DNA of 64,000 nucleotides, from assembly GCA_019448385.1 (NCBI GenBank), contig JAGTXO010000019.1, positions 345,001-409,000 of the forward strand, read 5' to 3'. The notes below the pieces were generated by a model. The model saw only the letters and a program-made list of their open reading frames with translations, ran no database searches and was not told the origin of the DNA. Below, piece by piece: positions 37,593 through 58,500 of the stretch (position 1 is the stretch's first letter; every line of letters starts with the position of its first letter). This DNA comes from Diacronema lutheri. Its lineage: Eukaryota > Haptophyta > Pavlovophyceae > Pavlovales > Pavlovaceae. The position numbers were made by a program, and so were the translations under genes.

Positions 37593-37998
37593 AGTATAGA
37601 TGGTCAAGCCAAATCCGATCAGGGGCACGATCGCGCCCCGAGTGCAGCGCGGGCCGTTCGGAAGGACGTCCTTGTGAGGGAGCTCTTCGCGTTTGGCGAG
37701 CGGGGGAGCACGACGCGCAGCGTTGCTGCGGCGGCGTGCGGGCGGCGAGCAGCGGTCGGGCTGCTCGCGACGAGGCCGGAGCAGACGGCGCCGTGGCCGC
37801 CGGCGCAGGTGACGCGCGCCGACGAGCCGTAGCGAGCGTCCGTGATCCGCACGGCGGTTGGAGCGGGCCGGCTGGTGCGGCGCGCTCGGCCACGGGTGGC
37901 GGCGTGCACGGTCGTGCCGCGCGCGGCACGCGTCGCCAGCCGCGCGCGACCTGGGCAGAGCCCGCAAAGCGTCGACCGCTGCGCGGCTCGGCCGTGCG
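37593..37998 (-). other. Downstream flank of the Fanzor frame; possible guide-RNA region and element end
   Basis: About 400 bp between the stop codon of the Fanzor frame (minus) and the end of the acyltransferase gene (plus). In TnpB and Fanzor loci the omega RNA is transcribed from the 3' end of the nuclease gene up to the element end. This segment is in that position and is rich in self-complementary GC stretches (for example around 37960-38030). No domain-like protein is readable. The element boundary must lie between about 37593 and 37998, but no terminal inverted repeat or target-site duplication could be identified by eye. Confidence 0.35.
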
Positions 37999-40727
37999 TC
38001 AACGCCGGCCGCGCTTCGGCCCGCGCGCGCTGCCGCCGCCGGCACTGGCGCTGGCAGCTCCGCGGGCGGGGGTGCGGGCGCGAGAGCCGCCGCCGCCACC
38101 GCCGCCGCGCCCGCCGCCGTCGTCGCCACCGCCGTCGCCGCCGCCGCCTCCCCCGCCGTCATCGTCGTCGTCGCCGCCGCCGCCTCCGTCGCCGTCGCCG
38201 TCGCCGTCGCCCTCGCCGCCGCCGCCGTCGCCGCTGCCATCGTCGTCGTCGTCGTCGTCGCCCTCGTCGTCGCCCTCGTCGTCGCCGTCGCACTCGTCGT
38301 CGCAGTCGTCGCCCTCGCCGTGCACCATGCGCTCCTCACGCTCCCACACCTCGCCGCGCGCCCACCAGGCGAGCACGAGGGCAAAGCGCTCAGGCGTCGA
38401 CGTGGTGTCGCGCCCGGCCGCGTGCGCCGCCATGTCGTGCACGTCGTAGAAGATGTTGCGCGCGGCGTTGTAGTCGCGGTGCACGGGCTTCTTGCCGCCG
38501 TTGCACGCCGGGCAGATGACGAGCGCGTGCACCGTGCGCGTGCCGCCCTTTGCCACGGGCAGGCGCGGGTTCTGCGCGAGCTCCGCGCCGCAGCGCTGCA
38601 GCCTGCCGCCCTTGGCGAGCCGCGGCATCGAGCAGTGCATCGACGTGTACGGCTCGGGCACGAAGACGGCCGCGACGCCGCGCCGCCGCAGCTCGCGCAG
38701 CAGCCCCACCTGGAAGGCGGGCGGCGCGCCCTTGGGCTGCGCGCCCTTGTGGTCGCGCAGCCACTTGCCCACGCACACGAGCAGCCGGTCGCGCGTCACG
38801 CCGTCGACACAGTGCGCCGCGATGAGCGCCTCGGCGACGCGCGCCGCGTTGGACCGCCCGCCGCTGTCGCGCCGCCAGCGCTCCTTCCGGCGCGCCGGCG
38901 CGTCGTACACGTGCTCGGCGGCGCGCTCGCGCACCCGCGCGCTCTCGCGGTGGAAGGCGATGTATTTGCCCGCGTCGAGCACCTTGGCGCTGTGCGCCTC
39001 GCCAAGCCGCGCCTCGTCCGCCTCCACGCTGAACTCCTCGCCGCGCCCGTCGGTGCGCACGCGCCGCCGCGCCGCGTTGGTCTTGGCCGTCTCGCGCGCA
39101 AAGCCCGCGGCGCGCGCGCGCGCGCGCTGCGTGAACTGCCGCCAGACGGCCGCCCGCCCGACGTGCGCAGAGTAGGTGGTGATGTTGCCCATGTTCGGGT
39201 CGGCCGCGACGACGACCGCCGCCTCGACGTCGATCGCCCGCCGCAGCTCGGAGCCGAGCGCGACGGCGATGCGCCCGTCCGGCCGGCGCCAGCGGTGCAG
39301 GACGCCCGAGCCGCCGGCCGGCGCCTGCGCCTTCGGCACGAGGACGGTCCCGACGGCGTGCACGGCGACGCCATCTGTCACCACCGACTTGACGGGCTGC
39401 CGGCCCGGGAGCGGCACGCGCGGCAGCGGCGCGAGGCCAACCCACGAGCGCCGCGCGTGCCACGGCAGATCGGCCGGCGGCCGCTCGCGCCCGGCGTAGT
39501 CGAAGACGCGGTTGGAGATGTCGAAGCGCGTCGCAAAGACCGCGTACCTGACGCGCACGTCCGACATCGGCGGGGTGTTGCCGTTTGTGCCTGTCCACTT
39601 GATCGGCTCGCCATCGTGGTCGCGCAGGTCCAGCGCCTTGAGCCGCGCGCGCAGCTCCTTGCGCTCGTCATCCGAAAGCGTCACCCAGATGGCGCTCGCG
39701 GCGAAGCGCACGTTGCGCGGCACCTGCGCGCAGCGCGCGGCGCGCGAGCGCGCGGGCGCGTGACCAACCTGGCCGCGGGGCGGCGCGCACGGCGGCGGCG
39801 CGCGCGCGCTTGGGCCCTCGGCGGCGGCAGCGGCAGCCACGCCTCGCGCGCACATTGTGCGTGCGCAGCGGCGCCACATTGTACCGCGGCGGCCGTCCGG
39901 TCAGCTGCGTGTGGATGTGCGCGAGCCGGCAGAGCAGCGCCTGCCCCTCGGCCACGTGCTGCAGGGTGCGGATCTGCACGAGGAAGTAGCGCGTCGTGTG
40001 CCGGTCGTAGTTCCACCTTTTCGTGGGCGTGCACTTGTAGTCGATCTTGTGGAGGACCATGTCGGGCAGGTGGCGGTCGAGCGCGGCGGGGCAGCCGACG
40101 CGCGCGCCCTCCACGTCGCCGCGCAGCAGCCGCTCGCACAGCTCGCGCACGCGCGCGTTTCGCTGCATCTCGGGCAGCGCGACGAGCGCCTCGTCGCGCT
40201 CGACTGCCGCGCGGACGACGTCGCGGAGCAGCCCGTTCACGACGCGCGATGGATGCATCAGGCACGCGGTGGACACCTGCGTCGCCTCCGCCTCGAGGAT
40301 CTCCGTGAGGCCCACCGCGCAGACGGGCTGGACGCCCTCGGCCATCTCGCCGACGGCGCGCGCCGTCGCCGCCTTGGTCTGCGCGGCGGCTTGCTCGGCG
40401 GGCTTGCCTCGGGGCGCTGCACCGTACGTGCTCTCGTCCTTGTGCCAGCCGATGGCCGAGAAGATCGCACGGACGGTTCCCTTGTCCATCGTGGTCGACG
40501 TGTGCACGCTGGTCGACGGGCCGCCCGACGCCGCGCCGACGGCCTGCGCGCTCGCCACCGCAGCCTCGTCGCGCACCACCTTGTTGATGACGCGGTACGC
40601 CTGTGTCGTGAGCCTGTGCACGGCCGCCGCGATGCGCCGCAGCTCCTTCCGCGCACCGGGCTGCGCCGTCACCGCCTGCGGCCCCGCGTTGAGCGTCGAG
40701 CGCTTGACCACGAAGCCCGGGAGCACG
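37999..40727 (-). CDS. Fanzor (eukaryotic TnpB-like) RNA-guided nuclease portion
   Basis: The C-terminal exon (39723-37999) has all three RuvC-like acidic residues. These are D in AADPNMGNITTY (codon 39201-39199), E in VFVPEPYTSMHC (38655-38653) and D in KPVHRDYNAARNI (38475-38473). A zinc ribbon sits between the last two (C in MHCSM, QRCG and CPAC). The HRDYNAARNI block is the strongest TnpB/Fanzor signature. The exon joins the giant frame by a 130-bp intron (39853-39724; GTGCGCG donor, GCGCAG acceptor, phase 0), which unites RYNVAPLRTHN with VPRNVRFAASAIW. The N-terminal part (from about 40727, PGFVVKRSTLN, ELRRIAAAVHRLTTQAY) fits the helical start of Fanzors. The C-terminus is an Asp/Gly-rich acidic tail encoded at 38150-38335, followed by a basic end. 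Confidence 0.88.
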
Positions 40728-43700
40728 CTGCCGCGCGTGCGCGCCGTCGCGCCGCCGGCGGCGCGCGCGCTCGGCGCAGCGGGCTCGTCCACGCGCGCGC
40801 GCTCGACGCCGCGCGCGCGGGGAACGCTCGGCGCGCGCGCGCCCGCGGCGTCGCGCGCGCTCGCGGCGGCACCCGCCGCGGCGCGCTTGCCCGCGGCGCC
40901 CGACTCGCCGTGCGCGCGAAGCGGCGCCGACGCCAATGCCGACGCCGCGCCCGCGCCGCCGCTGCCGCTGCCCGATACGCCCGCGCGCCGCTTCTGCTCG
41001 TCGCGCGTCTTGCGGAACTGGGCGACGAGGTCGCTGCTCACGTTGGCCTCAGGCTCCCACGTGTCGGCGCTCTCGTCGTAGCCCCGCCACCTGATCCGGA
41101 ACTGGAACGTCACCTTCTTGCCCGCCTTGCGGCGCTCGTCGACGACCGCCTCGACCTCGTACGTGCGCGCCTCCTCGTCGACGCTCGCGCCCGCCGCGCT
41201 CGCGCCCGTGTCCGGCCACCCAGCGACCGTGCCGCCCAGCCTCTCGGCGGCCGCGCGCAGCTGCCGCTCGCGCTGGGCGGCCGCGGCGCCTCGCGCGACC
41301 AGCGCGGGCAGCATGCCCGCGCCGCCCGCGAGGCCGTGCGCGCCGACGCTGGCGGTCATCAGCGCGTCGAGGCACGCGAACGTTGCGAGCGCACGCGCGC
41401 CATCGTCGCCGCCGCGCGGCTGCGAGCGCACGACGGGCGATGGCCGCGGCTCCCCCTCGGCCGCGAGCAGCGGCCAGATCGCACTGGCCAGCGCGACGGC
41501 ATGCGCGCCGACCGCGACGGCCACGTCCGCGTCGAGCGGCGCAAAGTCGTAGCGCACGAGCGCGGCCGGGCGCGAGTCGTCCGTCGGCCGGTCGGCGACG
41601 AGCAGCCCGACCGGGCGCGGCGGCTCGCCGGACGGCGCGGCGACGGGCACGCAGAGGAGCACGACGAGCAGGCGCGGCGTGCCGCCGAGCAGCGCGCGCG
41701 CGGCATCCGCCCCGTCGGCTCCGCCGCGCGCGGCCGCGGCGAGCAGCTCGGCCGCGCGCGTCGGGCCCAGCGCCGTGCGCGCGTCCTTGCGCGCGCGTGC
41801 GCGGGCCGTGTACGCGGCGCAGGCGTCGTCGAGCACCGCCGCGCTGGGCGCGGTGCCAGTCGTCGCCCACGCGCGCAGCGCGTCGCGCACCCGCGTGACG
41901 ATCGCCTGGTCGACCGCCGCCTCGCCGGCAGCGTGCGCCGGCGCGCACGCCGGCGGTGCGGCGGCAGGCGCGAGCGCGGGCGCGCCGTCGGCGCCGTCAA
42001 CGCCGACGGCGCCGTCGGCGCGCCGCCACGCGAGCTTCGCCTCGATCTGCTGCCGGACGGCGTGGCAGTGCCGGTCGATGCCGCGCGCGTCGTCGAGCGC
42101 GGCCAGCGCGTCCTCAGCGGCGGGACGGCCGCTCGCGTCCGCGACGGCCTGCAGGCAGAGCAGCGCGGCCGCACGCGCGTTGCACGCGCTCTGCGGCTCG
42201 GGCGCGAGCGCGAGCTCGAGCTCGAGCGGCGACGCGCCTCGCGCCGCGGCGATCGCGTCCATCAGCACGTCCAACCGCTGCACCAGCGCCCTGTGCGCGT
42301 CGCGCGGCGCGCCCGTCGACGGCGCGCGCGAGCGCGTCGCCACGAGCCCGAGCGCGCGCGCCGGCGCGCCCGCCGGCGTGTGCAGCACGAGCAGCGCCGC
42401 GCCCGCCAAGCTCGCGTTGCGCGTGACGAGCGCGAAGATGCGCGTCGCCTCGTGCGCGCCCACCGACGCCCAGATCGCAGCGCGATCGGCGTCCGTCTGC
42501 GCGTCGCACAGGTCGCGCACGTCGTCCGGCGCGAGCAGCGCGCCGCCGCCGGCGGAGCGCGCGACGATCGCCCGCGCCTCCGCCACGAAGACGGCCTGCG
42601 GCAGGTCGGCGTGGCGCGCGTCGACGATGGCGCGCGTCGCGTGCACGCCGAGCTCCACGCCGCGGTAGAAGGCGCGCGCGTTGGCCGCGCGCGCGTGCGC
42701 CGGCCGTCCGTCCGCGTTGCGCCTCGCGCGCGCCTGCTTGCTCGTGCGCGCGAGGCCGTCGCGTGGCGGTGGCGGCAGCGTGGCGAGGAAGCGCGCGGCG
42801 GGCGGCGGCGCGCGCACGCCGCGCTGCCGCCGTGCGATGGCCGCGAGCCGCCGGCCCGCCGCGCTGCCGCCCGCGCCGACGTGCTGCCGGCGGCCGAGCG
42901 CCGCCGGTGGCGGCGGCGGCGGCGGCGCGGCGGCGGGCGGCGGCGCGACGGCGGGCGGCGGCGCGGCGGCGGGCGGCGGCGCGGCGGTGGGCGGCGGCGC
43001 GGCGGCGGGCGGCGGCGCGGCGGCGGGCGGCAGCGGCGGCGGCGCGGCGGCGACGGCAGCACCAGTCGGCTTGTCCGCCCACGCACCCGAGACTCTGTCC
43101 CAGACCTTGCCCCATGGCGCGCGCCCACGCGGCCGCGCGAACTGCCCCGGCTCGAGCGCCTGGCCGCGCTTGGCGGCGGCGGCGGCGGCAGGGGGCGGGC
43201 GGCCGGCGCGCCAGTCGAAGACAGGTGCAACCGTGGCGGCAGGCGCCGAGTGCCGCGCGTCGGTCACAGAGCGCGTGGTGCGCGCGGCGACCGTGGCACG
43301 CCTGGCGGGCGGGCGGTGAGCAGCGCCCGCCGGCGCGCCGGCGGGCGCGGCCGCCTCGAGCCCGGCGGAGGCGCCGCGCTTGCGCTTGCGCGTGCCGCCG
43401 CGCGTGCGCCTGCGCGCGCGCCCGCCGCGCGCCCGTTCGGCCTGCGCGTCGCCAGCCGCGTCGCCGGCCGCGTCGCCGCGCCGCACGTAGACGACCGCGA
43501 ACGCCTCCTCGCCGGTCCCGTCGACGCCGCCGCGCGCGCGGCGCAGGACCGACCGCCACTGCAGCCGCCGCGCGCGGCCGGGCTCGCACGCAAACCAGCG
43601 CCCACCGCGCCTGACGACGGCCACAAAGTCGTCGTCGCGCCGCCCGCGCCGGCGCGTGCGCAGCAGCACGCACTGCACGTCGAGCCAGCCCTCGTGCCAG

Positions 43701-46700
43701 TCGGCCGTGCTGGGGGCGACGCGAATCGACTGCGGGAGCTCGACGCCAAAGCCGGCGAGCCGCACGATGTGCGCGACGATGACGCTCGAAATGGCGGGGG
43801 CGCTCGACGGGTCGCCCGCTGCAGCGAGCACCGCCCCGCCCCAGTGCTCACGCGTGACGCAATCCGCGTCCTCGACGTGCACGTGCGCCACGCTCGCGCC
43901 GAGCTGGTGCAGCAACGCGCAGATGTCGGCGTCGACCGTCCTCTCCTCCTCGGCCGCCTCGGCCGTGCCGCGGGCGGCGGCGTCGCCTGCCGGCTGCCCG
44001 AGGTACGCGATCGCCCGCTCGACGGCCGCGCGCTCCGCACGCGCTGCGCTGTCGATCGCCGCATTGCCGACGGGCGCGCGCAGCGCCGCGATCGCGTCTT
44101 GCAACGCCGTCGCGTCGCCCGTCGCCGCCGTCGCCGCCACCGCCGCCGCGCTCGCGGTGCCGTGCGCGACGGCGTGCAGCGCGGCGGCGCGCGCGGCGGG
44201 GATGCGCCCGTCCAGCGCGAGCACGAGCGGCGGCCCGGCCGGCGTCTGCTGCCGCCGGTGCCGCCGGCTCGCAGCCGGGTGGTCGGCGCGCGCGCGCTCG
44301 AGCCGCGCGCGCCGCTCGACGACGCGCGCCCAGAAGGCCTGCACCCTCGGCTGCGCGAATGCAAGCCAGCCGACGCCGCGCGTCACGACGTGCACGACGA
44401 TCCGGTCCTCGTGCCTGAGGTACTGCACGTAGAGCGCTTTGCGCACGCCGAGGACGTGCATGCCGAGCTGCAGCTGATCGCGGTGCGGCTGCGGCGGCCC
44501 GTCCTCGTGCGCCTTGGCGTCCGCCTTGGTGAGCGTCTTCACCTCGACGAGGACCTGCTCGTTGTCTTCGGGGAGGATGGCGAGCCCGTCCGGCGAGAAG
44601 GCGAACGGCGCGCTCTTGTCGTGCGGGTCCGCACGCACCATCGGCAGGTTGCACACGACGGTGATGCCGTACGCGGCCGCCAGCTTGCGCAGCGCGACGG
44701 CCTCGCCGAGGATGCCCGCGGTCGTCGCCTTGGTCCGCACCTCGCGCCGCCGCCGGTGCACGTACTCGTCGGTGAGCGTCTCGTGCGCGACGCCGGCGTT
44801 GTCGTTCACGACGTCGCCAACCTTGCTGCCCGTGACCTCCTCCCATCGCTCGTCGTGCCAGCGCGGGCTGCGCTGCGCGGGCGCGCCCGCGCCGACGGCG
44901 TCGAGCACGCGGCGCAGCGCTGTGCCGTCGGGCGCAGCAGGCACGCGCGCGCGGTCCTGGGCCTCGCGAGCGTCGAGGACGCAGCCCGTAGTGGAATCTT
45001 GGGGTAGGTCGAGCTTGCTCGCCTCGCCGTAGCGGCTCTCCAGCTGGCGCGGTGCGTCGGCAGGGCCGCCGTCCGTGCGCGCACCCGACGCGCCCGCCAG
45101 TGCACGGGGCGCAGCGTCCGAGGCGCCCGCCGCGCCCGCGCCGCCGCCAATCGCGCCAGCGCACGCGCGCGCCGCGACCTGCGGACGGCCAGCCGCAGGG
45201 ACCTCGTCCGCTCGGCCGGCCGCTGCGTCGGCCGTCCGCTTGGCCACCTCGCGCACGTCTCCGAGCGCGAGCGTGGCTGGCGCCGTCGAGCTCCCGTGGC
45301 GTTTGTTCCAAAACTCGAGCAGCCCGCCAAGGAAGGGCGTGCCCGTCGGGCGGTCCTCGGGCACCTCCGCCAGGATCGCGTCGACGCGCAGCGCGGCCGC
45401 CACATCGCAAAACGCGCGCGCGGCGCGCGCCATCCGCTCGGCGCGCGCGCCGCCGTCGTCCGCCGCGCGGCGGATGGCGTGGCTCACGTGCGCGACGCGG
45501 AGCGAGACGACGGCGTGCGCCGGCGCGTCGGCGCCCGTGCCGAGCGTGTGCCGCCGGATGGCCAGCTGCCCATCGCCCATGCGCGGCGGGAGCGACGCGC
45601 ACGCCGCGACGGTCGTCTTGCCGGCCGCGCTGTCGCACAGCCAGCTCGCCTCGCCGCCGCCCGCAAACTCAAAGGTCGCGAAGCCCTCGCGGCCGAAAAG
45701 CGCGACGAAGTGGTCGAGCACCGCCTTGTTGATCGCGCGCGCCGCCGGCCGCGTCGATGCGCCGCGGGCAGCGCCACCCGCCGCGCCGCGCGCATCGCTG
45801 CACGTCGCAGGGCAGGTGCAGCCGGACGCGCGCACGCCGTCCGACCGCGTCCGCGGCAGCTCGAGCTCGCGCACCTTGGGGCAGAACCAGAGCGGGTTGG
45901 ACGCCTCGAGGCACAGCACGACGAGCCGCCCGTCCGTGCCGGCCAGCGCGCGCGCGTCGCGCAGCAGCTCGACGGCGAGCTCGGACGTCGCCGCGTGCAC
46001 CGCCGGCTCGCCCGTCGCGCGGTCGGGCGGGAAGAGGCCGCCGCCGACGAGCGGGCTGGGGCAGCGGCCGAGCATCACGAGCAGCGGCGGCGGCGGCGTC
46101 TGCGGCGCCTGCTGCCCGACCGCAGCCGCCGTCAGCCCGGCCAGGTCGGAGCTCGTGCGGAGGGCCTTGAGCGCGACGCGCGAGCCGGTGCCCGCCTGCT
46201 CGGAAAACGTGGCGAGCATGGCGCACGTGCTCGCCCTCGCGCCGCACTGCCAGCTGACGCGCGCGAGGAGGCCTTCCAGCGTGTCGTTTTCGCGCGGCCG
46301 CGTGACCGCGTCGAGCGCCGCCGGGCCGAGCTGGAGGCTGCCGGGCGTGACGCACAGCACCGCCTCGTGGTAGGCGCGCAGCAGCTCCCTCGGCAGCTGC
46401 TCGGCGGGCGTCGCCGCCTGCCCGCCCACCCACCGTGCACCGTGGCCGCCGTCGCCCGCGCCCGCGAGCCGCACCGCCGGCCCGCCCGTGATCGCCGAGG
46501 TCGGTGGCGTGCCGAGCGCGTCGACGAGCGCGCGCACGGGCGCGACACGCCTGCGCGCAGCGTCCGCGCCGACGGCGAGCGCGGCGATCTGAGCGCCCTC
46601 CCATGCGCGCTCCCTCGCGTCGTCCCGCGCGGCCGCCGGCGCGGCGCCCGGCCGCGCGCCGTGCGGCACCGCGCACGCCGCCGCGACGACCTCCGCGCGC

Positions 46701-48569
46701 GCGCCGGCGGCGTCGGGCGCGTGCAGCTGCGCGAGCGCGCCAAAGAGCGCGGCGGCCGAGCGGTAGCGGCCGTGCGCCGCGACGAGCGCGTAGAGCACGC
46801 GCAGCGCGGCCACGCCCGCCTGGTCGGGCGCGTCGTCAGCGATGCGCTCGACCTCCCACGTGCGCGTGGGCGGCGGGCTGCCGTCGGCCGGGTCCGGACG
46901 CAGCGCCCACGCGCGCTCGACGATCGCGTTGAACACGCCGTGCGCGGCGCCCTCGTCAAACTCGGCGGCGCCCGCCGCGTGCGCGCACCACCCGTGCACG
47001 CGCGACGTGGGCGCGTCCACGGCGCGCTGCACGACGAGCACCGCCGGCCGGTCGACGCAGCCGAGGCTCACCGCCGCGTGCTTGCCCTCGAGCAGCGCCG
47101 CCGCCGCAGCCTCGACCAAGGCGTCACCAGGCGCGTCGCCGACGACGACGGCACAGCCGTCGCCGTACTCGGCCTGCATCGCGGCGACGCACGACGCGAC
47201 AAAGTCGCCGCCCGCGGCCGCCGCGTGTCGCGCCGCCAGCATCCGGCGCGCGATGGCAAGCCAGACGTACTCGGCCGGCGCGCGCGCGGCGCGCGCGCGA
47301 GGCGCGCCGGCCGCGCCGCGTGCGCCCGCGCGTGCGCCTCCAGCGGCCGCAACGGCCGAGGCGGCTGGAGCGGCGGTGAGCGTGCGCCGCGCGCGCTTCG
47401 CCGGCCGCGTGATGGGCGATGCACCCGCCGTCGCACCGCCCGCAGCAGCCGGTGCGGCCGCCACAGCGCCCGCCGCGACGCCACTCGTCACGACGCCCGT
47501 GGCGGGCGGCGCGGCGTCGGACGCGGCCGCGTCGACGGGCGTCGCGCAACTACCGCCAGCGGTCGCGGACGCGCCCGGCGACGCGTCGGCGAGGAGGTGG
47601 CGCAGCACGCCGCGCGCGAGCGCGACTCGCACGGCGAGCGTCAGCGCGCGCAGGCGGTCGGAAGGCGAGGCGTCGCGCTCGGCGTCGGCGGACGTGGCGG
47701 CAGCAGGCGGGGCGGCGGGCGGCGCGGCGGCGGACTGGGCGGCCGCCGGCGCAACCTCGTCGGCCTTGGCCAGCCAGACGAGCCCGGCGACTGCGAGCAC
47801 GACGCTGTACGCGCCGACATCGTCACCCGCAACGCGCGCCAGCCGGGCGTGGGCGTCGGCCTCGGACACGGCGACGCGGAAGAGCACGTCGTCGCGGGCA
47901 GCTTGCTCGGCAAACTGACGCAGCTGCTTGGCCATCGTCACGCCGGCGACGCACGCCTCGCCCGCCTCTGCCTCGACCTGCTCGTCCTGGCCGATGGCGG
48001 ACGCGCCGGCCTCGGCGCCAGCGTCGAGTGTCCGGCGGCGCTCGAGGGCAAAGCCACGCACACAGACGCTCTGGAGGCCGCCGAGCGCGCCCGCCTTCTC
48101 GTGCAGCGCGCACGACAGCTCGACCACCGAGTCCACGCGCCTCGCGGCGGCGCCCCCCCGCTCGCCGCGCGTGGCCGCGCGCACGACGAACACCGTGAAT
48201 TGCGCGCGCTTCGCCGCGCGCGCCGACGCGCACGCGTGCTTCAGGAGCCGGCAAAGCGCGGGCCTTTGCGCCGCTGCGCCCCGCGTGCACAGCAGCAGTT
48301 GGCCGCGCTCGTCGCCCAGCTCCTGCTCGACGGCGGCCTCGAGCGCGTCGTCCGTCAAATCGCCGTGCTCCGTCGAGGCGAGCGCGCGCGCAGCCGCGAG
48401 CGCCAGCTCGCCTGCGCCCGCGCGCCGCCGGCGGCGCGCATCGGCGGGCGCGTGCGGCGCCGACGCGTGTGACGACGCCGCCGCGTCCGCGCGCGCACAC
48501 GCGGCGCGCAACGCCTCGCGCGCCGAGGCGGCCGCGCGCGCCCTGGGCGCGAGCTTCAAGAACGTGCGC

Positions 48570-48617
<48 letters not shown>

Positions 48618-51600
48618 TCGCCCTCGTCGCCGGCACGCGGCGGCGGTGGCGGCGGTGGCGGCGCGGCCACGGCGGCGGCAGCAGCGGCAGCGGCGGTGGT
48701 GGTGGCGGCGGCGGCGCCCAGCGCGGGCGGCGGAGGTGGCGGCGGCGGCGGAACGGCGGCAGCGGCGGCGGCGTCTGCGGCGGCCTTGGCGCCGCGCGTC
48801 TGCCGCGGCGCTTCGGCAGCGCGATCGCGGCTGCCCCCGCCGCGCACCGCGCCCGCCCCGGCGCAGGCGCCGCTCGGCGCACGCCCGCTGACCGCGCCAG
48901 TCAACGCGACGCGGAGGTGCTCGCCAACAGCGTACATGTCCGCCACGCTGAACGTGCGCGGCGCGGATGCACCGCCCGCCGCAGCGAGCGCGGCGTCGTT
49001 GAGCGCGCCCACCACGGCGAGGCCGCACGTCGCGCCACGCTGCGCCGCGTTGTCGAGCAGCCGCGCGCGGCGCACGGGCAAGACGTCGAGGCCCGCCGCG
49101 TGCAGCGTGGCGGTTATCGACCTGGCACGCTTGAGCGCCTGCCTGCTCGGCGACGCGAGCGTGTCGACAAGCACCGCGTCGTAGCGATGCTCGCCCGCGC
49201 GCGCGACGCGCACGAGGCGCAACGCGGTGAAATGGCCGGAGGCGGGCGGCGTGCCATCGTCACTGCCCGCACCGCCGCGCCCGCCCGGCGGGCTCCACAT
49301 GCCGATGACCGCCTGCGTCGTCGCCTCGCTGTGCAGGCGGTGCAGCAGCGCGGCGCGCTCGGCGCCGTCCTGGAACACCGCGGGCTGAGCGGCAAGCGGT
49401 ACGTGGCAGACGCGCCCTTCGCCGGCCTGCCCGTGCACGCGCAGCACGACCTCGCAGCAAGCGTCCACAGTGGAGGCGAGCATGTCGCCGCCCGCAATGC
49501 AGTCCACCTCTGCCTGCGGGATGCCGGCGCGCGCGGCGGCATCGGCCAGCCGGAGCGCAGCCGCGTCGCCCGCCCACGCGAGCAGCGCCGGGGCGGCGGA
49601 CTGGACGTCGCGCTGCGCCACGGCGGGCTCGGCCGCGGCGGGCTGGGCAGCGGCTGGCTCGGCAGCGGCGGGCTGGGCGGGGGCTGGCGCGGCGGCGGTG
49701 GGCTCGGCGGCCGACGATTGCGTGGCAGGCTGCGGCGCGGCCAAGGCGGCGGTCGGGCGGGCGGCGGAGGCGAAGGCGGCCCATGCGGCGGCCGAGCACA
49801 CGGCGACGAGCCAAAAGGCGGTGGCTGCAGACGGGCGAGCGGCCGGAGCAATGGCGGCCCGGACGGCAGAGGCGGCGACGACACTCGCGAAGATGCCGAC
49901 GGCGCACCGGACAGTGGCGACGGCGACGGCGGCACCGGCACACGGGCGGCGGTGGGGGCTGTCGGGCTCGGCGGCAGGCTCGGCGGCATGCTCGGCCGAG
50001 GGCCGATCGGTGCGCGACGGCGGGCTGCGACTCGCGCGGCGGAGCGGCTGCGGTGCGTGCTGGCCGCCCGTCGCGCACCTGCGCTTGCGCTCGCGGCGCG
50101 CGTCGCCGCCACGCAATCGGCGGCCGACAGCCCGCTCTGACCTGTCGATTGATCTCCGCAGCCGGTCGCGCGCGCGCTTTGCCGCCCGCCGTGCGCGCCG
50201 CGGCGGTGCGCGCGGGCACTGGTCGGGCGAGCTGCGCGCGGCAGGCTCGCAGCAGCCGCCGTCGCGTGCGTGCGCGCAGCCTCGGTCGCACGGCGCGCAA
50301 ACGAGGTCGTCGGCGCCATCGACGCCGTCGAGGCCGTCGCCGCGCGCTGCGGCTGCGAGCGCGCGTGCCACGCCGTCGTCGCCGGCCGCCGGCGCCGCTG
50401 CGGCGGCCGCGGCGTCGGCTGCACGGCGCTCGGGCTGCGGCTCGAGCGGCGGGACGGCGCCGGCCGCCGCGGGCGGCGCCGTGTCGAGCGGAGCAGCCGC
50501 GGCGCGCGCGCGCGCGCGCGCACCCTTTGCGCCTACCGCGAGACGCCACCCGCGCGGGCGCCACGCGCGCCGCGGCTCGGCGGCCGCGCGACCGGCGGTG
50601 CCGGGCGTGGCGGCGAGCGCAGCGCTCGAACTTGCGTCTGGCTCGGTGGCGGCGAGCCGGCGCAGTTGCCGCGCAATGCAGGGCTGCACGTCGAGGTGCG
50701 CCTCGTCGAGTCGCGAGAGGAGCTCGCGCGCGCGAGTGCCGAGCGCGGCGCCGTCGCACTCGGCACGCGCGCCCGCCGGAGCCACCGAGCCTTCGGGGTC
50801 GCGCGGCGCGAGCAGCTCGCGCGCAGTCGCGAGCAGCTCCGCCTGCTCGGCGGTGGGGATGCAGGCGCGGCGCAGCGCGAGCTCTGTGTGCGCGGGCAGG
50901 TGGGCGCCCACGGCCTCGGCGTGCATGAGTAGCGCGCGCGCCTCCGCAGGTGCGTCCGCCTCGCCCATCTCGGACGCGGCGAGCACGCCCGCCGCCTCAG
51001 CGGCGAGCGCGAGCCGCGGCGACGCGAGGTCGCGCAGCGACCGCAGCAGGTGCGGAGGCAGCGCGTGGCCACGCGCCTTGACGCGCTCGAGCAGGGCGCG
51101 CGCGCGCGCTGCATCGTCCGCAGAGCCCAGCGCGCACTGCTCGATCAGGCGGCCGGCCGCGCGCTTGTCCTCGCGAAAAAGCTGCTCGCGGTGGAGCGCG
51201 CGGCGGGTCTCGCGCTTGGCGAGCGCGTCGGCACGCGCCCTGCAGCCCTCGTCGGCGGCGGCGGCGAGCTCGGCAACGCCGCCAGGCTCGGTGGCGGCGG
51301 CAAGCGTGGCGGCGACGGCGCCTACCTCAGCGGCAGCAATGCGGTCGTCAGCGCGCTTGGCGGCAGCGCATTTGACGGCGGGCTGGTCGGCTGGCTTGGC
51401 GTCAGGCACGGTGGGAGGCTGGGCCGTGGACTGGGCGGCGGGCTCGGCGGTGGGCTTGGCAGCGGCTGGCTTGGCGGCGGGCTCGGCGGCGGGCTGGGCG
51501 GCGGGCTGGGCGGCGGCGGGCTCGGTGGCGGGCACGTCCGCCTCGGCCAACAAGAGCGGCTCGAAGCGGTTGCTCGCGCGCATGCTGGCGCGCGGATGGC

Positions 51601-51931
51601 TCGGCGGCAGAGCAGCGGGCCGAACGCCAGCGCCCGCGCCGAGGCCTGGCCGCGCTGGCTGCCAGGGCTGCTCGCGCTGCTCGCGCTGCTCGCGCTGCAC
51701 GCGCTGCACGCGCTGCTCGCGCTGCTCGCGCTGCTCGCGCTGCTCGCGCTGCTCGCGCTGCTCGCGCTGCTCGCGCTGCTCGCGCTGCTCGTGCTGCGGG
51801 CACCACGTGCGCTTGCGCCAGTTGTGCTGCGCATCCCCGCCCTCCGCTGCCGGCTCAAAATTTGCGCATGCCCAGATTTGGCCGCGCCCAACAATTGGCG
51901 TGCGCTGGTCCTGCGCGCGGCCGGCGGGCAA
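39854..51931 (-). CDS. Giant composite ORF (protease - YqaJ - chromodomain - Fanzor N-terminus)
   Basis: One frame stays open for 4,087 codons (51931 to 39668); the spliced coding part ends at 39854 (residue 4026). Domain order: EQR repeat (residues about 48-88), Ulp1-like protease (about 870-1010), Ala/Gly low-complexity block (encoded at 48560-48790), regions of unknown fold, and a second unknown block with a Cys cluster (GCTCPATCSD). Then come a YqaJ-like nuclease (about 2350-2530), a USP-like fold remnant (about 2745-2820), an RPRGRAPWGKVWD motif (about 2935), the segment repeated at 1-1541, a chromodomain (about 3588-3631) and the Fanzor start. Such length without a stop, with in-frame domains from end to end, argues for a real coding sequence. 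The start is uncertain: the frame may be an internal exon beginning at 51910 after a CAG acceptor. Confidence 0.75.
41035..41170 (-). other. Chromodomain within the giant ORF
   Basis: Residues about 3588-3631 read YEVEAVVDERRKAGKKVTFQ, then FRIRWRGYDESADTWEPEANV. The Y-x-V-E-x-I/V start, the Y/F-x-I/V-x-W-x-G-Y core and the T-W-E-P end are the chromodomain signature, with aromatic cage positions Y, W and Y/F present. In LTR retroelements chromodomains steer integration to modified chromatin. Here it sits directly before the Fanzor part, so it could tether the nuclease to chromatin marks. Confidence 0.9.
44300..44880 (-). other. YqaJ / lambda-exonuclease-like domain within the giant ORF
   Basis: Ordered motifs of the PD-(D/E)xK YqaJ family are all present: RSPRWHDERWEEVTGSKVGD, GILGEAVALRKLA with the first acidic residue, FAFSPDGLAI (the S-P-D-G aspartate), VLVEVKTL (E-x-K) and HRDQLQLGMHVLG (Q-x-Q helix). 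The following VQYLRHEDRIVVHVV strand also fits. YqaJ enzymes are 5'-3' exonucleases used in single-strand-annealing recombination by phages, giant viruses and some eukaryotic transposons. The catalytic set appears intact. Confidence 0.88.
48950..49330 (-). other. Ulp1-like (C48) cysteine protease domain within the giant ORF
   Basis: A catalytic set in the Ulp1/adenain order is visible: H900 in GHFTALRLVR, D923 in YDAVLVDTLAS, Q964 and C969 in AAQRGATCGLAVVGAL. The Q-to-C spacing is one residue shorter than in yeast Ulp1. C48-type proteases cleave SUMO or process polyproteins and are common in plant and algal DNA transposons. Here it could cut the large protein into units or remove SUMO from target chromatin; neither is shown. 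Confidence 0.72.
51660..51795 (-). repeat. 9-bp coding repeat (EQR)n
   Basis: About fourteen copies of gcgctgctc on the plus strand, read on the minus strand as a Glu-Gln-Arg repeat with two Val substitutions. It would form a highly charged helix. It lies at the N-terminus of the giant frame. Confidence 0.9.
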
Positions 51932-52208
51932 GAGGTCGGGCGGGCGGGAGGCGTAGGGGATGCGTGAGGGTGCTGCACGCTATACGCGCAAACTTTACCT
52001 GGCGCGAACGCAAGCGCCGGGCGCCACGCTGTGGACAGCGGACGGCGTGCGCGTGCGAGGCACTCACCGCCATTGGCAATGCGCGCGTCGCGGAGACAAC
52101 TTGGCGGGCCTCGCACGCAGCTGGGCCGATCGCCGCCGCAGAGGTGTCTGCAGCCGTCTCCGCGATGCCGATCGTCGCATCTGTTGGCACCGCTGCCATC
52201 TGCCGCAC

Positions 52209-53461
52209 CCGCGACCAGGCTGCCGACAGGGTCGGCGCGTCGGGCGCCGAGCTCGGCCACGCAGGCGATGCGGCCGACGGCGGTGACGCTGAGCCCAGCG
52301 CCGGGTCCAACGGTTCCGCGTCGAGCCGGCTGTAGAAGAGCATGCTCGCACCACTTGCCCACGCCAGCGCGTCGGACTGAGACAAGTTGTGCATCTGCGC
52401 GGGCAACGCGCGTGCGTGCGGCAGGCGCGCGGCGCGAGCTTTCAGGCCACGCGCGCGTGCCGCGCGGGAGGACGGGGCGGCTGCGGCTGCGATCAACCGC
52501 CGGTCGCGGCGCCAAGCGGCCGTGCGCGCCGCCGCACGTTGTCGTCGTCGCACAGAAACCAAGCCCCGTTGCGGAGCACGATGGCGACAAGGTGCCCGCT
52601 CGTCGACTCCTCGCCCAAGTGCACGACGGCGGCGACGAGGAGGTAGTCGCGCCCGCCGAGTAGCAGCCGCGGCGCGCACACGAACGCGTGCTTGTTCTTG
52701 CACTGCGAGCCATTGCCGCGCGTCGTGCGCGGCACCTCGACGGCAATGCTGGCTGGCATGAGCACGTCCGAGCGGCACGCGTCCGGGCTGCCACCCTGCG
52801 GCGGCCCAGCGACGCCCCCCAGAGCGTGTGCGAGCGTGCGCGCCGCATCGCCGCCAATGCTGACGAGGATGGCGATGCCCTCACCGCGCTCGCTCGAGGC
52901 CACAGCGATCGGCTCGAGCACTACGCGTCTGTCGTCTTCGAAGGCAGCAGCGAGCCCGGGCACTCGGCCGAGTAGCATCTGGAAGAACTCAGCAGCGTCC
53001 TGCTGCGTCCCTCGCGTGCCACGGCCCAAGATGACGTCGACGACGGACACAAGACACAGCTGTGCCGGCGCCTCGGTGTCCTCGAGCAGCGTGCCAAAGT
53101 CCCGAAAAAGCGCCTTCTCGACTCTTCCCGCACGGCGCGAAGCGGAGCGGGGCATCGGACGGAGCACGTTCAAGGCGACGAGCGATTGCGCGAGGGCGTT
53201 CACGTAGCACGCGTTGCCCTCGTTTTTCACGCCTGCGCCGCGCCGCGCAGCGCCGGGTGTGCGGGGTGCGCACGCAAGGTTTACGGCGGGTCGGAGAGAG
53301 GCCGACTGGGAACGCGCCGAACCCGGCGAGCCGTGCAGGCGCTCACCACGCGGCACGTCGGGCACTCTCACCGGCCACATCGGGCCGATGAACGCGCCCC
53401 CCACAGGCTGCCGGCCGACGACTCGGAAGTTGCTCCAGGCGCTGCGCCGTGCACGCGTCAT
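52209..53461 (-). CDS. USP-fold cysteine protease of the mobile element
   Basis: Reconstructed exons are 53461-53347, 53232-52538 and 52394-52209. Junctions are in phase (GTGAGC or GTGCGG donors, CAG acceptors). The Cys box is GVKNEGNACYVNALAQSL, the middle has GTQQDAAEFFQMLL (the Q-x-D-A-x-E-F block), and the His box is STSGHLVAIVLRNGAWFLCDDDN. The third exon closes the fold with ALAWASGASMLFYSRL. This is a compact USP/UCH domain without the usual zinc-finger insertion. The element may carry it to stabilise its own protein or alter host ubiquitin marks. The exact start is uncertain. A donor GTGCGG at 52208 is phase-compatible with an acceptor at 51911 at the start of the giant frame, so this may be the N-terminus of one large protein. 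Without that splice the frame runs on to a stop at 51855. Confidence 0.78.
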
Positions 53462-55149
53462 GCGCGCGCTGTTGCGGGCTACGCAGCAGAAACGACGGGG
53501 GAATAGGCGAGCGAGGGTTGGGCGCAGATCAGCGTGGTGGCGCGGCAAGACGAGCGCGCGCCGGGCGCCTGGCGCGGAGGCGCCCCGCGCGAGGACGCGA
53601 GCCGCTTCTCGCACCGGACGGGCGCCCACGCGCAAACCGGCTTTAGAGGGCCAGATGGATGGTGGCCGATGACGAATCAGCGCGGCACCCGCCTTTGAAA
53701 AAGGGCGTCGCGGCACTGCCCGAAAGCGGTACGGACGAGCCGGGCGCCATGCATGGAACGATGCGACGGCGGCGTGAGCGCGGGACGATCTTGCCCAGGC
53801 AATTGTGCGCGTTCAGCGGGCGGCGCGCGCGTTGCGCGTGACGGGGCGCCGAGCGGCACACCGGCGGGGACCCGCTCGCCGCTGCCGTGGCATCCTCCGC
53901 TGCCGGCGTGCTGGCACGCACGCGCATTGCCGGCGCGAGGGGACGGCGAGTGCGCCTCGGCCGAACAGGCGCGAACGTTACGCCCGAGCGCGTGGCCGAG
54001 CACCGGATGGAAGCATGCTTCGTCATGCGGCGGCGACCCGCGCCGATTGCACGCAGCGCCGGCCTAGGCGCGCATCCGCCCGACGCGGATTTGGACGACG
54101 CGTCGACCGGCACGCCGAGCGTCTGCGTCTGCCTCGCGGCCGGTCGCGCCGGCCCCTCTTCGGCTCGCGGCCGCACGTGCGCCGCGCGCCGCTTCGGCGC
54201 GCGGCGCGGCGCGCCTGGAACGCGCGGAACATACGCGCGGTGCGCGGGCACGCCCGCAACGCGCCATTTTAGCGCGAGCAGTTCGGCAAGCTTGCAGCTC
54301 GCGAGCAGCCGGGCATGTGCCGCGGACACACAGTTCGCTGTGTGCGCCGGCCGCGACGACACGGCGTAGCGGCGCGAGGCTGGCGGCCGGGGCCACGGGC
54401 GTAATCGTGGCGCGACGCCATGGCATGAGTAATAAATCCATGAGTAATAAATCACGGGCCCAAGCTCACGCGCTGTACGGCCTCTCCCGCATGGCGTGCC
54501 AGGACCGCATTTTCGCTCGGCCACGCAGCGGACCACGGCGCGTTGTGCGCGCCCGGCGCGAGTGGTGCGAGTGGCGGGCCAAGCCGCGTCGCCCACGGAG
54601 CCCGCCCCCGGCTCGGCGGCACCGCTACCGCTTGCTCGCCGGGCCGCGCACCGCCGTCGCCGCCGCTGCGCGCTTGCCCTGCTTGCCGGCAGGCGGCGGC
54701 GGCGGCGGCGGCTGAGGTTGCGGCAGCGGCGCGAGCGCGACGCCGGACGGCGGCAGCGCCGACGGCACGCGCGCGGCGGCGACCCACGCGGCGTCGGGCA
54801 GCGCGCCGGCTTGAGGCCCCTGCTTGCCGGCCGCATTGGCGCCGCCCTGCGCGCCCTAGAAGGGCGCGCAGGTACGCGGGCCAGTCGCGCGGCGCGCGGT
54901 GTTGGCGAGCACCCGCCGGCTGCGTGTCGGCCGCGAGCGGCGCGACGGGCGTCGCGCCGGCGGGTGCTGGGCAGCACCGCGCGCCGGCGTCGCGCCCGCC
55001 GCCAGCGCGCCGCCCGCCGCCGGCGCCGCGCGCGCCGTCCGAGCCGCGCCCGCCGCGCCCGCCGCCACCGCGCGCCGCCGCCGCGCATTCGCGCGCGGCG
55101 GCGACGGCGGCCGCGGCGAATGCCGCCGCCGCCGCCGCCGCCTCGCCAC
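53462..55149 (-). other. Region between the USP-like gene and the Pif1 relic
   Basis: No confident gene. On the minus strand around 54050-54360 a short readable stretch (ARLLASCKLAELLALKW, then a Lys/Arg/Pro-rich AT-hook-like part GAPRRAPKRRAAHVRPR) may be a remnant exon of an element protein. From 55150 to about 54690 a Gly/Ala-rich frame follows the Pif1 relic and may have been its C-terminal tail. Confidence 0.3.
54424..54453. repeat. 15-bp perfect tandem duplication
   Basis: catgagtaataaatc occurs twice in direct succession (54424-54438 and 54439-54453). It is strikingly AT-rich for this region. It could be a small insertion footprint or a duplicated poly(A)-type signal (aataaa). Confidence 0.85.
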
Positions 55150-56720
55150 CGCTGACCGCGCGGAGCACCTCTTTGAAGACGACGGTGCGCGTCACATGGT
55201 CCGGGCCAAGCGCAAAGCGGATGCGCGACGCGTGCCCGACGCGCGAAGCGGCCACGTAGAGCTGGCCGTGCGTGAAGCACGGCTCGGCGAGCCACACGCC
55301 CGCGCACCCGAGCGCTTGACCCTGCGCCTTGTTACGCCGGCCGCACCGGGAACTGGCGGTGCAGCCATGCAAACGCGAACGTGCCCTCGTCGGGCGAGTG
55401 GTGGTCGATGCGCGCGATGAGCACGGTGCTGTCGCGCCCGGCGGCCGCGCCGGGGCGCGCGCACTCGAGCAGCCGGCCGCCGGCGCGCACGCCGCGCACG
55501 ACCAGCCGCGTGCCGCTGCACAGCCCCTCGCCGAGCGAGAGGAGGCGAGTGGCTACGAGCTCCGCCGGGTAGGCCGAGACGCCTCGGGCAGCTGCACGGG
55601 ATCGAGCGGGAATGCGCCGGGCATGGCCCCCGCAGGCGGCACCGCCGCGGGAAAGGCGCCGTCGCCGAGGCTGCGCGGCAGCTTCGCCCACTCGCCCGCG
55701 CCGAGCGCGTCGCCCGTGTCGCGCGCCGCGTTCGAGGCGCGAGAGTTCTCGACCAAGGCGTACGGCCGATCGTGCTGCCACGATGCCGAGTACTCGAGGC
55801 AGGAGCGCACGATCTGCGCGCGCGAGCCGCGCCGCACCACCGGCAAGCACTGGCAAAAGTCGCCGGCGAGCAGCAACGTCTTGCCGCCGAAGCGCTCGTC
55901 GACGCCCGTCACGTCGCGCAAACACCGATCGAGCGAGTCGAGGCGGCCCCGCTTCTGCATCGGCGCCTCGTCCCCCACGATCATTCGCCGCGGCGGCCAC
56001 GGAGCGCCCGCGCTCGGAGCGCGGCACGCCATTGAACGGCTTGCCCGTCCGAGTCGGCGCCGACGGGCACCTTGAAGGTCGAGTGGAAGGTGCGGCCGTC
56101 GGGCAGCAGCGTGGCGGCGACGCCCGAGGACGCGCACACGACGACCGCGTGCCCATCCGCGCGCACGGCGGCGATGATGGCGCGCTCGACGAACGTCTTG
56201 CCCGTGCCGCCCGGCGCGTCGCAAAAGTGCAGCCGGTCGCCCACGCCGCGCAGCGCCGAGTCGACGACCGCGCCGTGGAGCGCGCGCTGCTGGCCGGTCT
56301 CGGCCATCGCCGCGCGCGCCGCCGCCGCGCTCGCAGCCTGCTCGGCGCGATCGTAGCCCTGCGCGCGCGCGAGCTCGCGCCCGCCCGGCCCGGCCGGCGC
56401 GCGCGCCGTGCGCAGACCGGCCACCGCCGCGAGCGCCGCCGCGCGCTCGCGCTCGTCGGGCACGTACAGCCCCGTGGAGTCGAACGTGTCGGCCCAGGCG
56501 GCCACGCTGTACGAGGCGAAGGCGTCCGAGCCGGGCTGCGGCCGCTGCTCGGCGCGCTTCGGGAGCATGACCCCGCACACGTTCCACTTGGTGCCAAACA
56601 TCGAGCCCGTGAGCCCCGTGTAGACGCAGTCGAGCTGCGTGGCGATGGCGCAGACGTCCTCGTGCCGGATCTCGTCGACCGGTTCGCCATCCGTGGCGTC
56701 CAGGATGGCGACTGCGCCCG
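55150..56720 (-). pseudogene. Decayed Pif1-like helicase
   Basis: Pif1 motifs are readable in order but in several frames. Frame 1 (to about 56050) has DEIRHEDVCAIATQLDCVYT, the Walker A motif DAPGGTGKTFV and CASSGVAATLL. A +1 shift near 56053 gives KPFNGVPRSERG. Another shift near 55988 gives the Walker B region MIVGDEAPM and LLAGDFCQCLPVV. Near 55570 the frame changes again to YPAELVA...CSGTRLVVRG. At about 55325 the segment normally linking FPVRLAFAMTI to NKAQGQ is missing: FPVRPA is followed by a stop, and NKAQGQ...CFTHGQLYVAASRVG continues in another frame. Shifts without splice sites plus a lost motif mean it cannot encode an active helicase. Pif1-type helicases are typical of Helitrons and large viruses. 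Confidence 0.85.
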
Positions 56721-56871
56721 GGCCGTGACGCCGCGGCGTCGTTCGGCTGCGTCACGGAGGAGCGCCATCCGTGCGCCACGGAGGAGCGGCAGGACCACGA
56801 CGCGGCGTGACGCTGGACGACGCCATGCTGTCGAGGCGCCATGCTGTCGAGCCGCCATGCTCCGAGGCGCC

Positions 56872-57184
56872 GCCGCTTTCTAAAAGGGTGTAGGGTGTAG
56901 GGTGTAGGATGCAAAACAAGCCCTCCCCACATTTGGGCCCGACGTCATTCCTTCTTTCGTCACAGCGTCATTCCTTCTCCCCCCTATGGGACTTTCATAA
57001 CCGTACGTATCCTACACCCTACACTATGCAAATACCTAGAGAATAGATACATCCTACACTAAGTAAAGGTACTCGTATGTGAGTAACGTCACGGCTTCGA
57101 AGAAGGAATGACGTCGGGCCCAAATGTGGGGAGGGCTTGTTTTGCATCCTACACCCTACACCCTACACCCTTTTAGAAAGCGGC
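56872..57184. mobile_element. Foldback element / MITE with perfect 85-bp inverted repeats
   Basis: The arms at 56872-56956 and 57100-57184 are exact reverse complements over 85 bp, separated by 143 bp. Each arm contains three copies of gggtgta or its complement near its outer end. The interior is AT-rich and repeats parts of the arms (cgtcattccttct; cctacaccctacact). No open frame with protein content is inside. Its base composition is unlike the surroundings. A target-site duplication is not clear; only GCC flanks both sides. Confidence 0.9.
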
Positions 57185-57602
57185 GCCGAAGGTGGGAGGA
57201 TGCCACCCGTATGCGCGCGTTTGAACGTGCGCGGACGGCCGTTGGCTTCGCGCCCTTTCGCCCACGGTTTGCGCGCCAACGGACCAGTCCTCCGCGGGCG
57301 CCGCGCATCGTCTCAGGGGCGGTCGGTGTGGTACGCCGCGCGCATCGTCAGCGCCGCGGCGTCGAGCTCGGCGAGCGAGGGCGCGTACGTGACGCCGCTC
57401 AGCACCTCGTCCGCGCCCGCCCTCGTCGCGCTCGCCGCCTCCGCAGTGCGCGCAGGCGGCTTCGTGACGGCACGCGAGGCCACGCCGCGCGCCGCAGGTG
57501 CCTTCGCGCGCTGCATCGTCTGTCTGCCGGTCCGACGCGCTCTGCTCTGAACGAACGGACGGCACGCCCGACGAGATCTCGTCGCGTGCACGCTCGCACA
57601 GC
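57185..57602. other. Flank between the foldback element and an eroded ORF
   Basis: 418 bp with no supported gene. Frames here are low-complexity shadows. It may contain the former promoter or first exon of the eroded plus-strand reading frame that follows. Confidence 0.3.
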
Positions 57603-58435
57603 ATGTACCCCCAGAACGTCTCCGAGCTGCTGCCCGACGAGATCTTCGGCGACGAGCTGCTCGTCGACCGGCACTACCGCGTGCGCATCCTTCAGCGCGT
57701 CGCCCGCCGCCGCGATGCGGCCGAGGCCAACTTTTGGCTCGACGGCGGGCCCGCCGACTCGGTCGTCGGCGCGTGCATGTGCGGCCGAATCTACGCGCTC
57801 AAGTGCATGGGCCGGCTCGTCCGCGGCGCCCGGATCCTCGCGCTGCTGCGCAAAAATGTGGCGCTCGCCACGTGCCGCGCACACCTCATGGGCCACATGC
57901 TCCAGCGCATCGTCGGCGACAGCGGCGTCGCGCGGCTGCTGCAGCTGGTTGCAGCTCGTTCGCGAGGATCACGACACGCTCAACGCCGAGCACCAGGCCT
58001 TGGAAGCACAGCATGACACCGGCCAAGTCATGCGACGGCATGTGCGCGCGCGCCGACGCGCTCTCCAAGGACCTCGCACGGGCGCACGAGCACGCTCACA
58101 AGCTCGATGGCTATCTGGTGTGGTGCAGCGAGCGCCTCGGTGAGAGTGACTCTTTCAACGGAGCGCTCGAGAACCTGAACACGCGGTGCAGCATGAGATG
58201 TGCTGGCTCCACGCCGAGATGTCGTCGCTCGTTGCGAGTTCGCCCGAGGCTTACGCGAACGACAGCGAGGCCACCGACTTCAAGGACCACGGCGTGTGCG
58301 TCGAGTTCGATGTCTTCAACCGCGACGGGGTCGAGGGCGCGCCCGTGCCCGCGACCGCGCCCACGAAGGCAGAGCCGGGCATCGAGTCCGAGTGCATCGC
58401 GCCCGCACAGGCAGAGCCGGGCAGCGAGTCCGAAG

Positions 58436-58468
<33 letters not shown>

Positions 58469-58500
58469 GGCAGAGCCGCGCACCGAGCCCAAGTGAGCCA
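57603..58500 (+). pseudogene. Eroded gene of unknown family
   Basis: A protein-like text is readable from ATG 57603 (MYPQNVSELLPDEIFGDEL, then YRVRILQRVARRRDAAEANF and ACMCGRIYALKCMGRLVRG) but changes frame several times. After GVARLLQ the text LVREDHDTLNAEHQALEAQH is in a second frame; a 10-nt duplication (ctggttgcag) explains the shift. CDGMCARADALSKDLARAHE continues in a third frame, and QHEMCWLHAEMSSL...FDVFNRDGVEG in the next. The Leu/Glu/His-rich middle looks like a coiled coil. The family is not recognised. Short introns are a less likely explanation, since no GTGCG/CAG pairs sit at the shifts. Confidence 0.5.

Follow-up and report, generated by a model that had tools for sequence, protein, structure and literature searches.

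In the TnpB systems of the IS200/IS605 and IS607 families a guide RNA arises from the 3' end of the element, and the nuclease acts on the empty site. For TnpB a cut-and-copy activity has been discussed, in which the filled copy serves to repair the break at an empty site, and the same has been suggested for Fanzor (PMC10432273; this and the other papers cited by PMC number are used for the accessible parts of their text). Some Fanzor1 proteins reach up to ~800 residues (PMC10711439). In Chlamydomonas, Fanzor1 is carried by Helitron2 elements (CRe-1,2,3), whose full-length copies have no target site duplications (TSDs) and whose 3' ends are in excess (Bao and Jurka 2013, PMC3627910). Here we describe a giant mobile element of the haptophyte Diacronema lutheri, in which a candidate Fanzor-type nuclease lies in one reading frame with an exonuclease and a chromodomain. 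The window, i.e. the whole stretch of 64,000 nucleotides that was analysed (C47:345001-409000), comes from an assembly of 43.49 Mb in 103 contigs.

The nuclease resembles Fanzor1 (SpuFz1, GtFz1, PpFz1) in its [TS][TS]xx-C4 zinc finger-RD motif and, by eye, in the RuvC acidic residues; like Fanzor1 it belongs to a mobile element, in this case close to the 3' end of that element. Unlike Fanzor1, it follows a chromodomain and an exonuclease within a protein predicted to have ~4600 residues, and it matched none of the solved Fanzors by sequence, the RuvC/zinc part being covered by Cas12f1 at E 0.41. The Fanzor1-bearing Helitron2 of Chlamydomonas is the nearest precedent that we found in the accessible literature. 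The D. lutheri element shares with it the Fanzor, the apparent lack of TSDs and the excess of 3' ends, but has no recognised Rep, is ~31 kb long, carries the exonuclease and the chromodomain in the Fanzor frame and encodes a ubiquitin-specific protease (USP).

The element would be expected to share the logic of the IS200/IS605 and IS607 systems, but no TnpA-type HUH enzyme or serine recombinase was recognised in it, and it is a giant element of a eukaryote. Its exonuclease belongs to the same domain family as the phage RecE/YqaJ exonucleases (PHROG 434), but is in-frame with a putative RNA-guided nuclease, and no annealing protein was recognised alongside. The giant DNA transposons of Ectocarpus (KDZ, EnSpm and Sola-1) are longer than 10 kb, some longer than 30 kb, and have high copy numbers (PMC12477816). 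The D. lutheri element is similar to them in size and copy number; in contrast to these named superfamilies, it shows no terminal inverted repeats, no variable TSD and no recognised transposase of these kinds. The terminal inverted repeats and TSD that mark DDE-type elements (KDZ, Sola, MuDR, Mariner) were not found by eye, though a constant TATAG might be such a TSD. A limited literature search found no Fanzor joined to YqaJ, chromodomain or protease domains. We class the nuclease as a Fanzor-type protein whose architecture is new, and leave the element unclassified; possibly it represents a new transposon superfamily.

The giant reading frame and its domains

Our data support the coupling of the Fanzor, the chromodomain and the RecE-like exonuclease in one reading frame, as read from the sequence. 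A first-pass annotation of this DNA had pointed to an uninterrupted minus-strand frame of 12 kb, which our analysis bears out: the stop-free frame covers 39668-51979 (12.3 kb, 4103 codons). The longest open reading frame (ORF) in 200 dinucleotide shuffles of the same stretch has 1516 codons (median 795), which rules out a chance ORF due to high GC content, and the GC content peaks at the third codon position in 13 of the 14 blocks of the frame. The protein is predicted to have 4042 residues from exon 1 and 574 from exon 2, with the order, from the N-terminus, of a Ulp1-like candidate, the YqaJ/RecE exonuclease, the chromodomain and the Fanzor.

The same arrangement was observed in other copies of the element. 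In 16 of the 16 distinct copies for which this stretch was retrieved, a single frame free of stops holds both the chromodomain and the Fanzor N-terminus; the YqaJ part joins them in-frame with no stop in all five readable copies (the window, C1, C12, C83 and C30), and 84 of the 85 Fanzor exons scored are free of stops. The copies for these counts were drawn from the top of similarity-ranked lists, hence with a bias to intact ones. For 90 of the first 99 listed Fanzor words a YqaJ word was found as well, and 72 of these 90 spacings fall into one class modulo 3 and 13 into the class that matches an intron longer by 2 nt. Both the spacing and the intron length are known for 11 copies (the window, C1, C2, C5, C9, C12, C29, C30, C34 twice and C83); subtracting the intron leaves 5961, 5964 or 5988, which is divisible by 3 in 11 of 11, in a count that was combined by hand and has no non-coding control.

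Comparison with the 31-kb copy on C30 shows which parts travel together. Identity between the two copies is 99.9% over 37594-42697 and 97.6% over 42698-49590, falls to 90-96% in the USP/PIF1 part and reaches 99.4% at 56853-59191, whereas 49591-52034 of the window is unmatched in C30 by blastn, 10.3 kb of other sequence being found there. By codons, the giant frame is near-identical from residue ~1110 on, the Ulp1-like part has 83% protein identity, and in both copies the frame is open into the shared block (4103 codons in the window, 4509 in C30). As the block from residue ~1110 is shared almost unchanged while the parts upstream differ, the YqaJ-chromodomain-Fanzor stretch behaves as a unit. 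The window copy is without ~0.9 kb of the N-terminal side of PIF1 and without a frame of 1345 codons, both of which are in C30.

The modules could instead be made or processed as separate proteins, the long frame then being no working fusion but either a polyprotein or a mere consequence of 79% GC. We regard this as fairly unlikely. Accidental long frames do occur in such GC-rich DNA (an opposite-strand frame has 1747 codons) and protease genes are nearby, but the length beyond the shuffles, the third-position GC and the frame shared by chromodomain and Fanzor across copies are against it. An older copy piece at the start of the window bears on both sides: it has 0 stops in 510 aligned codons, and its differences by codon position 1, 2 and 3 are 17, 13 and 26, but its frame is shifted by a 2-nt deletion. 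It breaks off at element position ~42990, within a GC-rich repeat.

This frameshift is one of several points that count against the best explanation given below. The C83 copy has lost the giant frame at most 671 codons upstream of YqaJ; with the deletion in the older copy, this means that some element copies are decayed or misassembled. Five of the 90 YqaJ-Fanzor spacings are in a residue class that fits neither intron length. Between the window and C30 there are 0 synonymous differences over residues 3000-4042; the 3' part is too uniform, and therefore selection there is not measurable. No relative of the giant protein was found in other genomes among 1602 and 1609 candidates scored, in searches where low-complexity words may crowd out real ones. 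The joining of the modules within one protein is a prediction.

A match of exon 2 to the TnpB/Cas12f domain PF07282 (E 2e-6, 28.3 bits against a cut-off of 26.3) provides the family evidence for the Fanzor; a second one, to NCBIfam guided_TnpB, is below its cut-off (E 0.024). A published Fanzor motif of the C-terminal half, D-X(125-275)-[TS][TS]xx-C4 zinc finger-X(5-50)-RD (PMC3627910), matches exon 2 as a regular expression with X of 274 and 30, and the likely catalytic D and the RD are, by eye, at spacings of 184 and 8. Taken together, the zinc-ribbon domain and this motif suggest a Fanzor. The N-terminal half alone has no family match; its place in the giant frame, claimed in the first pass, holds by continuity with exon 2. 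The intron between the two, also claimed there, has the expected borders and phase; among 15 distinct border-matched copies, 10 have an intron of 130 nt and five one of 128 nt, the C93 copy being outside this count with an unmatched pattern. At the protein level, these exon ends are also linked to each other in a captured fragment within the NCBI D. lutheri protein KFE25_006464; it is a host SAM-domain gene model with ~100 captured Fanzor residues and the same splice junction. A similarity search with 8000 candidates scored gave two matches to the Fanzor, one at 98% protein identity on an ENA contig and the D. lutheri fragment, and no relative of the Fanzor exon or the YqaJ part was found in viral contigs.

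The YqaJ-like exonuclease and the chromodomain reported in the first pass were both recovered in the frame. For the former, Pfam YqaJ (E 0.015 on the whole protein, 2.8e-4 on the piece) and NCBIfam TIGR03033 (E 6.9e-6) are below their cut-offs, and D..ExK residues are seen by eye. The protease claims fared less well. The Ulp1-like protease shows its motif by eye, but this part has no Pfam, NCBIfam or PDB sequence match and the domain is unconfirmed, a further point against the full architecture. The structure predictions proposed for each block were run on two of them and came out with low confidence: the predicted local distance difference test (pLDDT) value is 41 for the AlphaFold2 model of the Ulp1-like part, with a best Foldseek match at E 0.78 and none significant, and 35 for the Fanzor exon 2. 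Neither was used as evidence, and nor was the non-significant Foldseek rank 3 of the former, the C48 enzyme NopD (E 1.2).

The USP had been placed in the same giant protein as a second cysteine protease. This is not borne out: it lies in a separate frame that is closed by a stop, and the 31-kb copy on C30 has the 1345-codon frame in between. The proposed coupling of Fanzor, exonuclease and chromatin reader is kept in one frame across copies, with the USP in a frame of its own. The 1345-codon frame (L020:175-4212, minus) has no family match; by eye, one part of it looks like another C48-like protease and another may be PD-(D/E)XK-like.

A giant mobile element in many copies in D. lutheri

The block is one copy of a mobile element with ~200 copies and a PIF1 helicase, which the first pass had overlooked. 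The element genes are mostly on the minus strand, with the 5' end at 59187 and the 3' end at 37594 (Table 1), and in gene orientation the element reads 5'-CTATATACGGCG ... CCATCTATAC-3'. Among twenty 10-kb stretches fetched, the match starts at 37594 in all 12 that reach the 3' end, three of the 12 being contig starts as well. The 5' boundary is at 59185-59191 in 39 of the 39 other copies listed (there are at least 39), and at 59187 in 22 of them.

Exact word counts are 210 for the 3'-end 25-mer, 148 for an inner 5' 25-mer and 101 for the outer 5' end; allowing at most one mismatch, a Fanzor catalytic 30-mer occurs 230 times and a YqaJ 30-mer 219 times genome-wide. On C1-C45 we found 99 3' ends, of which 55 are paired with a same-strand 5' end within 40 kb and 44 are unpaired. 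The paired lengths are 29-33 kb in 36 cases (most near 31.0), 20-24 kb in 12, 24-29 kb in six and 12.7 kb in one. The commonest full-length form is thus ~31 kb, while the window copy has 21.6 kb. We estimate that 219-230 copies of 21-31 kb take up about 5-7 Mb, or 11-16% of the assembly, a figure that truncated copies would lower. The near-identity among the scored copies points to recent spread or homogenisation. The D. lutheri genome was reported to be 22.9% repetitive, with long terminal repeat (LTR) elements and long interspersed nuclear elements (LINEs) dominating the annotated repeats and genes predicted by BRAKER2 with RNA-seq; the giant element is not mentioned in the accessible part of that paper (PMC8379373).

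Table 1. Features of the D. lutheri element and related sequence in the window (positions in the window)
Feature	Position	Strand	Basis
Whole mobile element, 21.6-kb form	37594..59187	-	boundaries common with other genomic copies
Giant gene, exon 1	39854..51979	-	4042 codons to predicted splice donor
Ulp1/C48-like protease candidate, residues 792-1036	48872..49606	-	H..D..Q..C motif by eye
YqaJ/RecE-like exonuclease, residues 2366-2557	44309..44884	-	PHROG 434, E 8.1e-16
Chromodomain, residues 3607-3657	41009..41161	-	Pfam PF00385, E 6.1e-12
Fanzor N-terminal half, residues ~3750-4042	39854..40732	-	by eye and continuity with exon 2
Intron, 130 nt, phase 0, GTGCGC...GCGCAG	39724..39853	-	GT...AG borders
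Fanzor exon 2: RuvC D..E..D by eye, C4 zinc finger, acidic tail, stop	37999..39723	-	
Fanzor stop to element 3' end, 405 nt, candidate guide-RNA scaffold	37594..37998	-	position only
Ubiquitin-specific protease (UCH)	52493..53812	-	Pfam PF00443, E 7.3e-15
PIF1 helicase, several frames/exons	54452..56944	-	PF05970, E 2.7e-23 and 6.5e-19; C-terminal part by eye
89-nt inverted repeat (99%) around 143 nt	56868..57188	.	CCCTACA/TGTAGGG telomere-like units; kept in C30
Open frames at element 5' end	57124..59187	+	no family match above chance
Older copy piece of the same element, same orientation	1..1540	-	96% to 41446-42987

Movement of the element and role of the fusion

The first pass had proposed that the fused protein inserts the element by cutting, resecting and annealing. 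The ends do not bear this out. They are fixed, no terminal inverted repeats were seen by eye, and the flanks of 11 paired copies share 0-2 bp with no common motif by eye (a twelfth pair, on C30, lacked a 5' key and is not counted). The lack of a variable target duplication or of junction homology argues against insertion by a break and annealing, unless the constant TATAG found at both ends is derived from the target. The element might nevertheless be copied to an allelic empty site with the help of resection and annealing. A TnpB-like role in retention, every step of which we infer, fits better and is the most likely role of the fusion, and an attached resecting exonuclease would benefit such healing from the filled copy.

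Our best explanation, held tentatively, is that the element is moved by an enzyme that we did not recognise and that the Fanzor fusion retains or copies it at empty alleles or sisters. The mover would leave no variable target duplication, and might act in a rolling-circle-like way with the PIF1 helicase of the element; the Fanzor would not choose the new sites. Instead, the Fanzor would be led to the empty allele or to the sister by a guide RNA that arises at the 3' end and has the host flank of each copy as its variable part; the fused exonuclease would resect the break, and repair from the filled copy would restore or duplicate the element. The chromodomain might keep the nuclease on chromatin, and the USP and the Ulp1-like protease might shield the fusion from ubiquitin/SUMO control or process a polyprotein. 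We consider it improbable that the fusion of nuclease, exonuclease and chromatin reader copies the element by itself, by cutting and resecting alleles or sisters, the element then belonging to a new superfamily of giant eukaryotic mobile elements with no classical transposase.

Several results weigh against the proposed retention by a guided Fanzor. No guide-RNA signal was found in the 3' stretch, which has no Rfam match and does not fold clearly better than its shuffles (z -1.29 and -1.13). In the frames scanned we recognised neither a DDE transposase nor a Rep or a tyrosine recombinase. A constant 5-bp TATAG target duplication is possible. As for Polintons and other viruses, their capsid, PolB and packaging ATPase had no Pfam match in the frames scanned.

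The absence of a variable duplication fits a rolling-circle-like or a recombinase-type movement. The element might be a highly derived Helitron-type rolling-circle element, its Rep lost, unrecognisable or supplied in trans and the Fanzor fusion its cargo, which we think unlikely but worth serious consideration. The ends without inverted repeats or variable duplication, the PIF1 helicase, a small hairpin close to the 3' end and the 3'-end words in excess of the 5' ones all favour this, and the Chlamydomonas elements set a precedent. The excess is less telling than it looks, as copies with no 5' word may have complete or slightly deleted 5' ends (C75, C2), which also weakens 5' truncation as a rule. 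Neither Pfam, on the ORFs scanned, nor a motif scan nor a tblastn search with the 3.3-kb locus of the Helitron candidate of this genome revealed a Rep/HUH domain, though a very divergent one could escape them. The single Helitron_like_N match in the genome is elsewhere than the element, at a separate Helitron candidate (L050, C63:35738). Moreover, the ends 5'-CTATATAC...CATCTATAC-3' differ from the 5'-TC...CTRR-3' of Helitron1; the asymmetric terminal inverted repeats of Helitron2 were looked for by eye only, with a single 3' hairpin seen near the end. The Rep domain was searched for and not found, and therefore we do not file the element as a Helitron.

Alternatively, the mover could be a tyrosine recombinase of the Crypton/Starship kind, or else a DDE transposase that targets a fixed TATAG, the end repeats then being derived from the target. 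A near-direct repeat is indeed present at both ends (GTATAG and GTATATAG on the plus strand), and the one copy that departs from it does so exactly there (CGTTAG). Yet no integrase or transposase family was matched in the frames scanned, where a divergent tyrosine recombinase could escape Pfam, and by eye the site on C39 has a tandem-repeat neighbour with no TATAG. We rate such a mover as quite unlikely. We also queried 11 joined flank pairs for an empty site, and no clean junction-spanning match was seen among the best candidates listed.

Two further ideas on target choice were set aside. Contigs that start at the element end (C1, C12, C83) suggested telomere targeting, but they fit an assembly break at a repeat boundary, as do C5, C6 and C10, where the 3' end is near contig base 1. 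Left flanks lie next to stop codons in 6 of 21 cases against 9.0% in the control (P 0.009); right flanks do so too (5 of 14 against 9.9%), so that this is probably only a leaning to AT-rich sites.

Flanking host DNA and significance of the element

At the 3' side of the window copy, a host gene for a candidate WS/DGAT-type acyltransferase (by eye) is at 35169-37590 on the plus strand, and its stop codon ends 1 nt short of the element. A second repeat family, starting with TCCGACCTTGTC, has tandem units of ~305 bp (stretches L054-L059); TTA precedes every start that was read except at C17, where the family start directly adjoins the 5' end of the giant element. Short repeats whose ends are palindromic by eye (TACTAACG[AG]CGCTTAC) lie against or close to several ends of the element (L018, L051, L052). 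The copies at C39:323469 and C45:2073 share their 5'-side flank; here either two contig ends overlap or the insertion is present on both alleles.

If the proposed coupling is true, D. lutheri would have a natural combination of an RNA-guided cutter, an end-resecting exonuclease and a chromatin reader, the kind of tool that is otherwise engineered by hand to copy DNA into breaks. The role of Fanzor in eukaryotic transposons would then become testable, as ~200 copies are nearly identical but differ in the flank that is the presumed guide of each, and D. lutheri, a small culturable alga, would provide a setting for testing Fanzor function.

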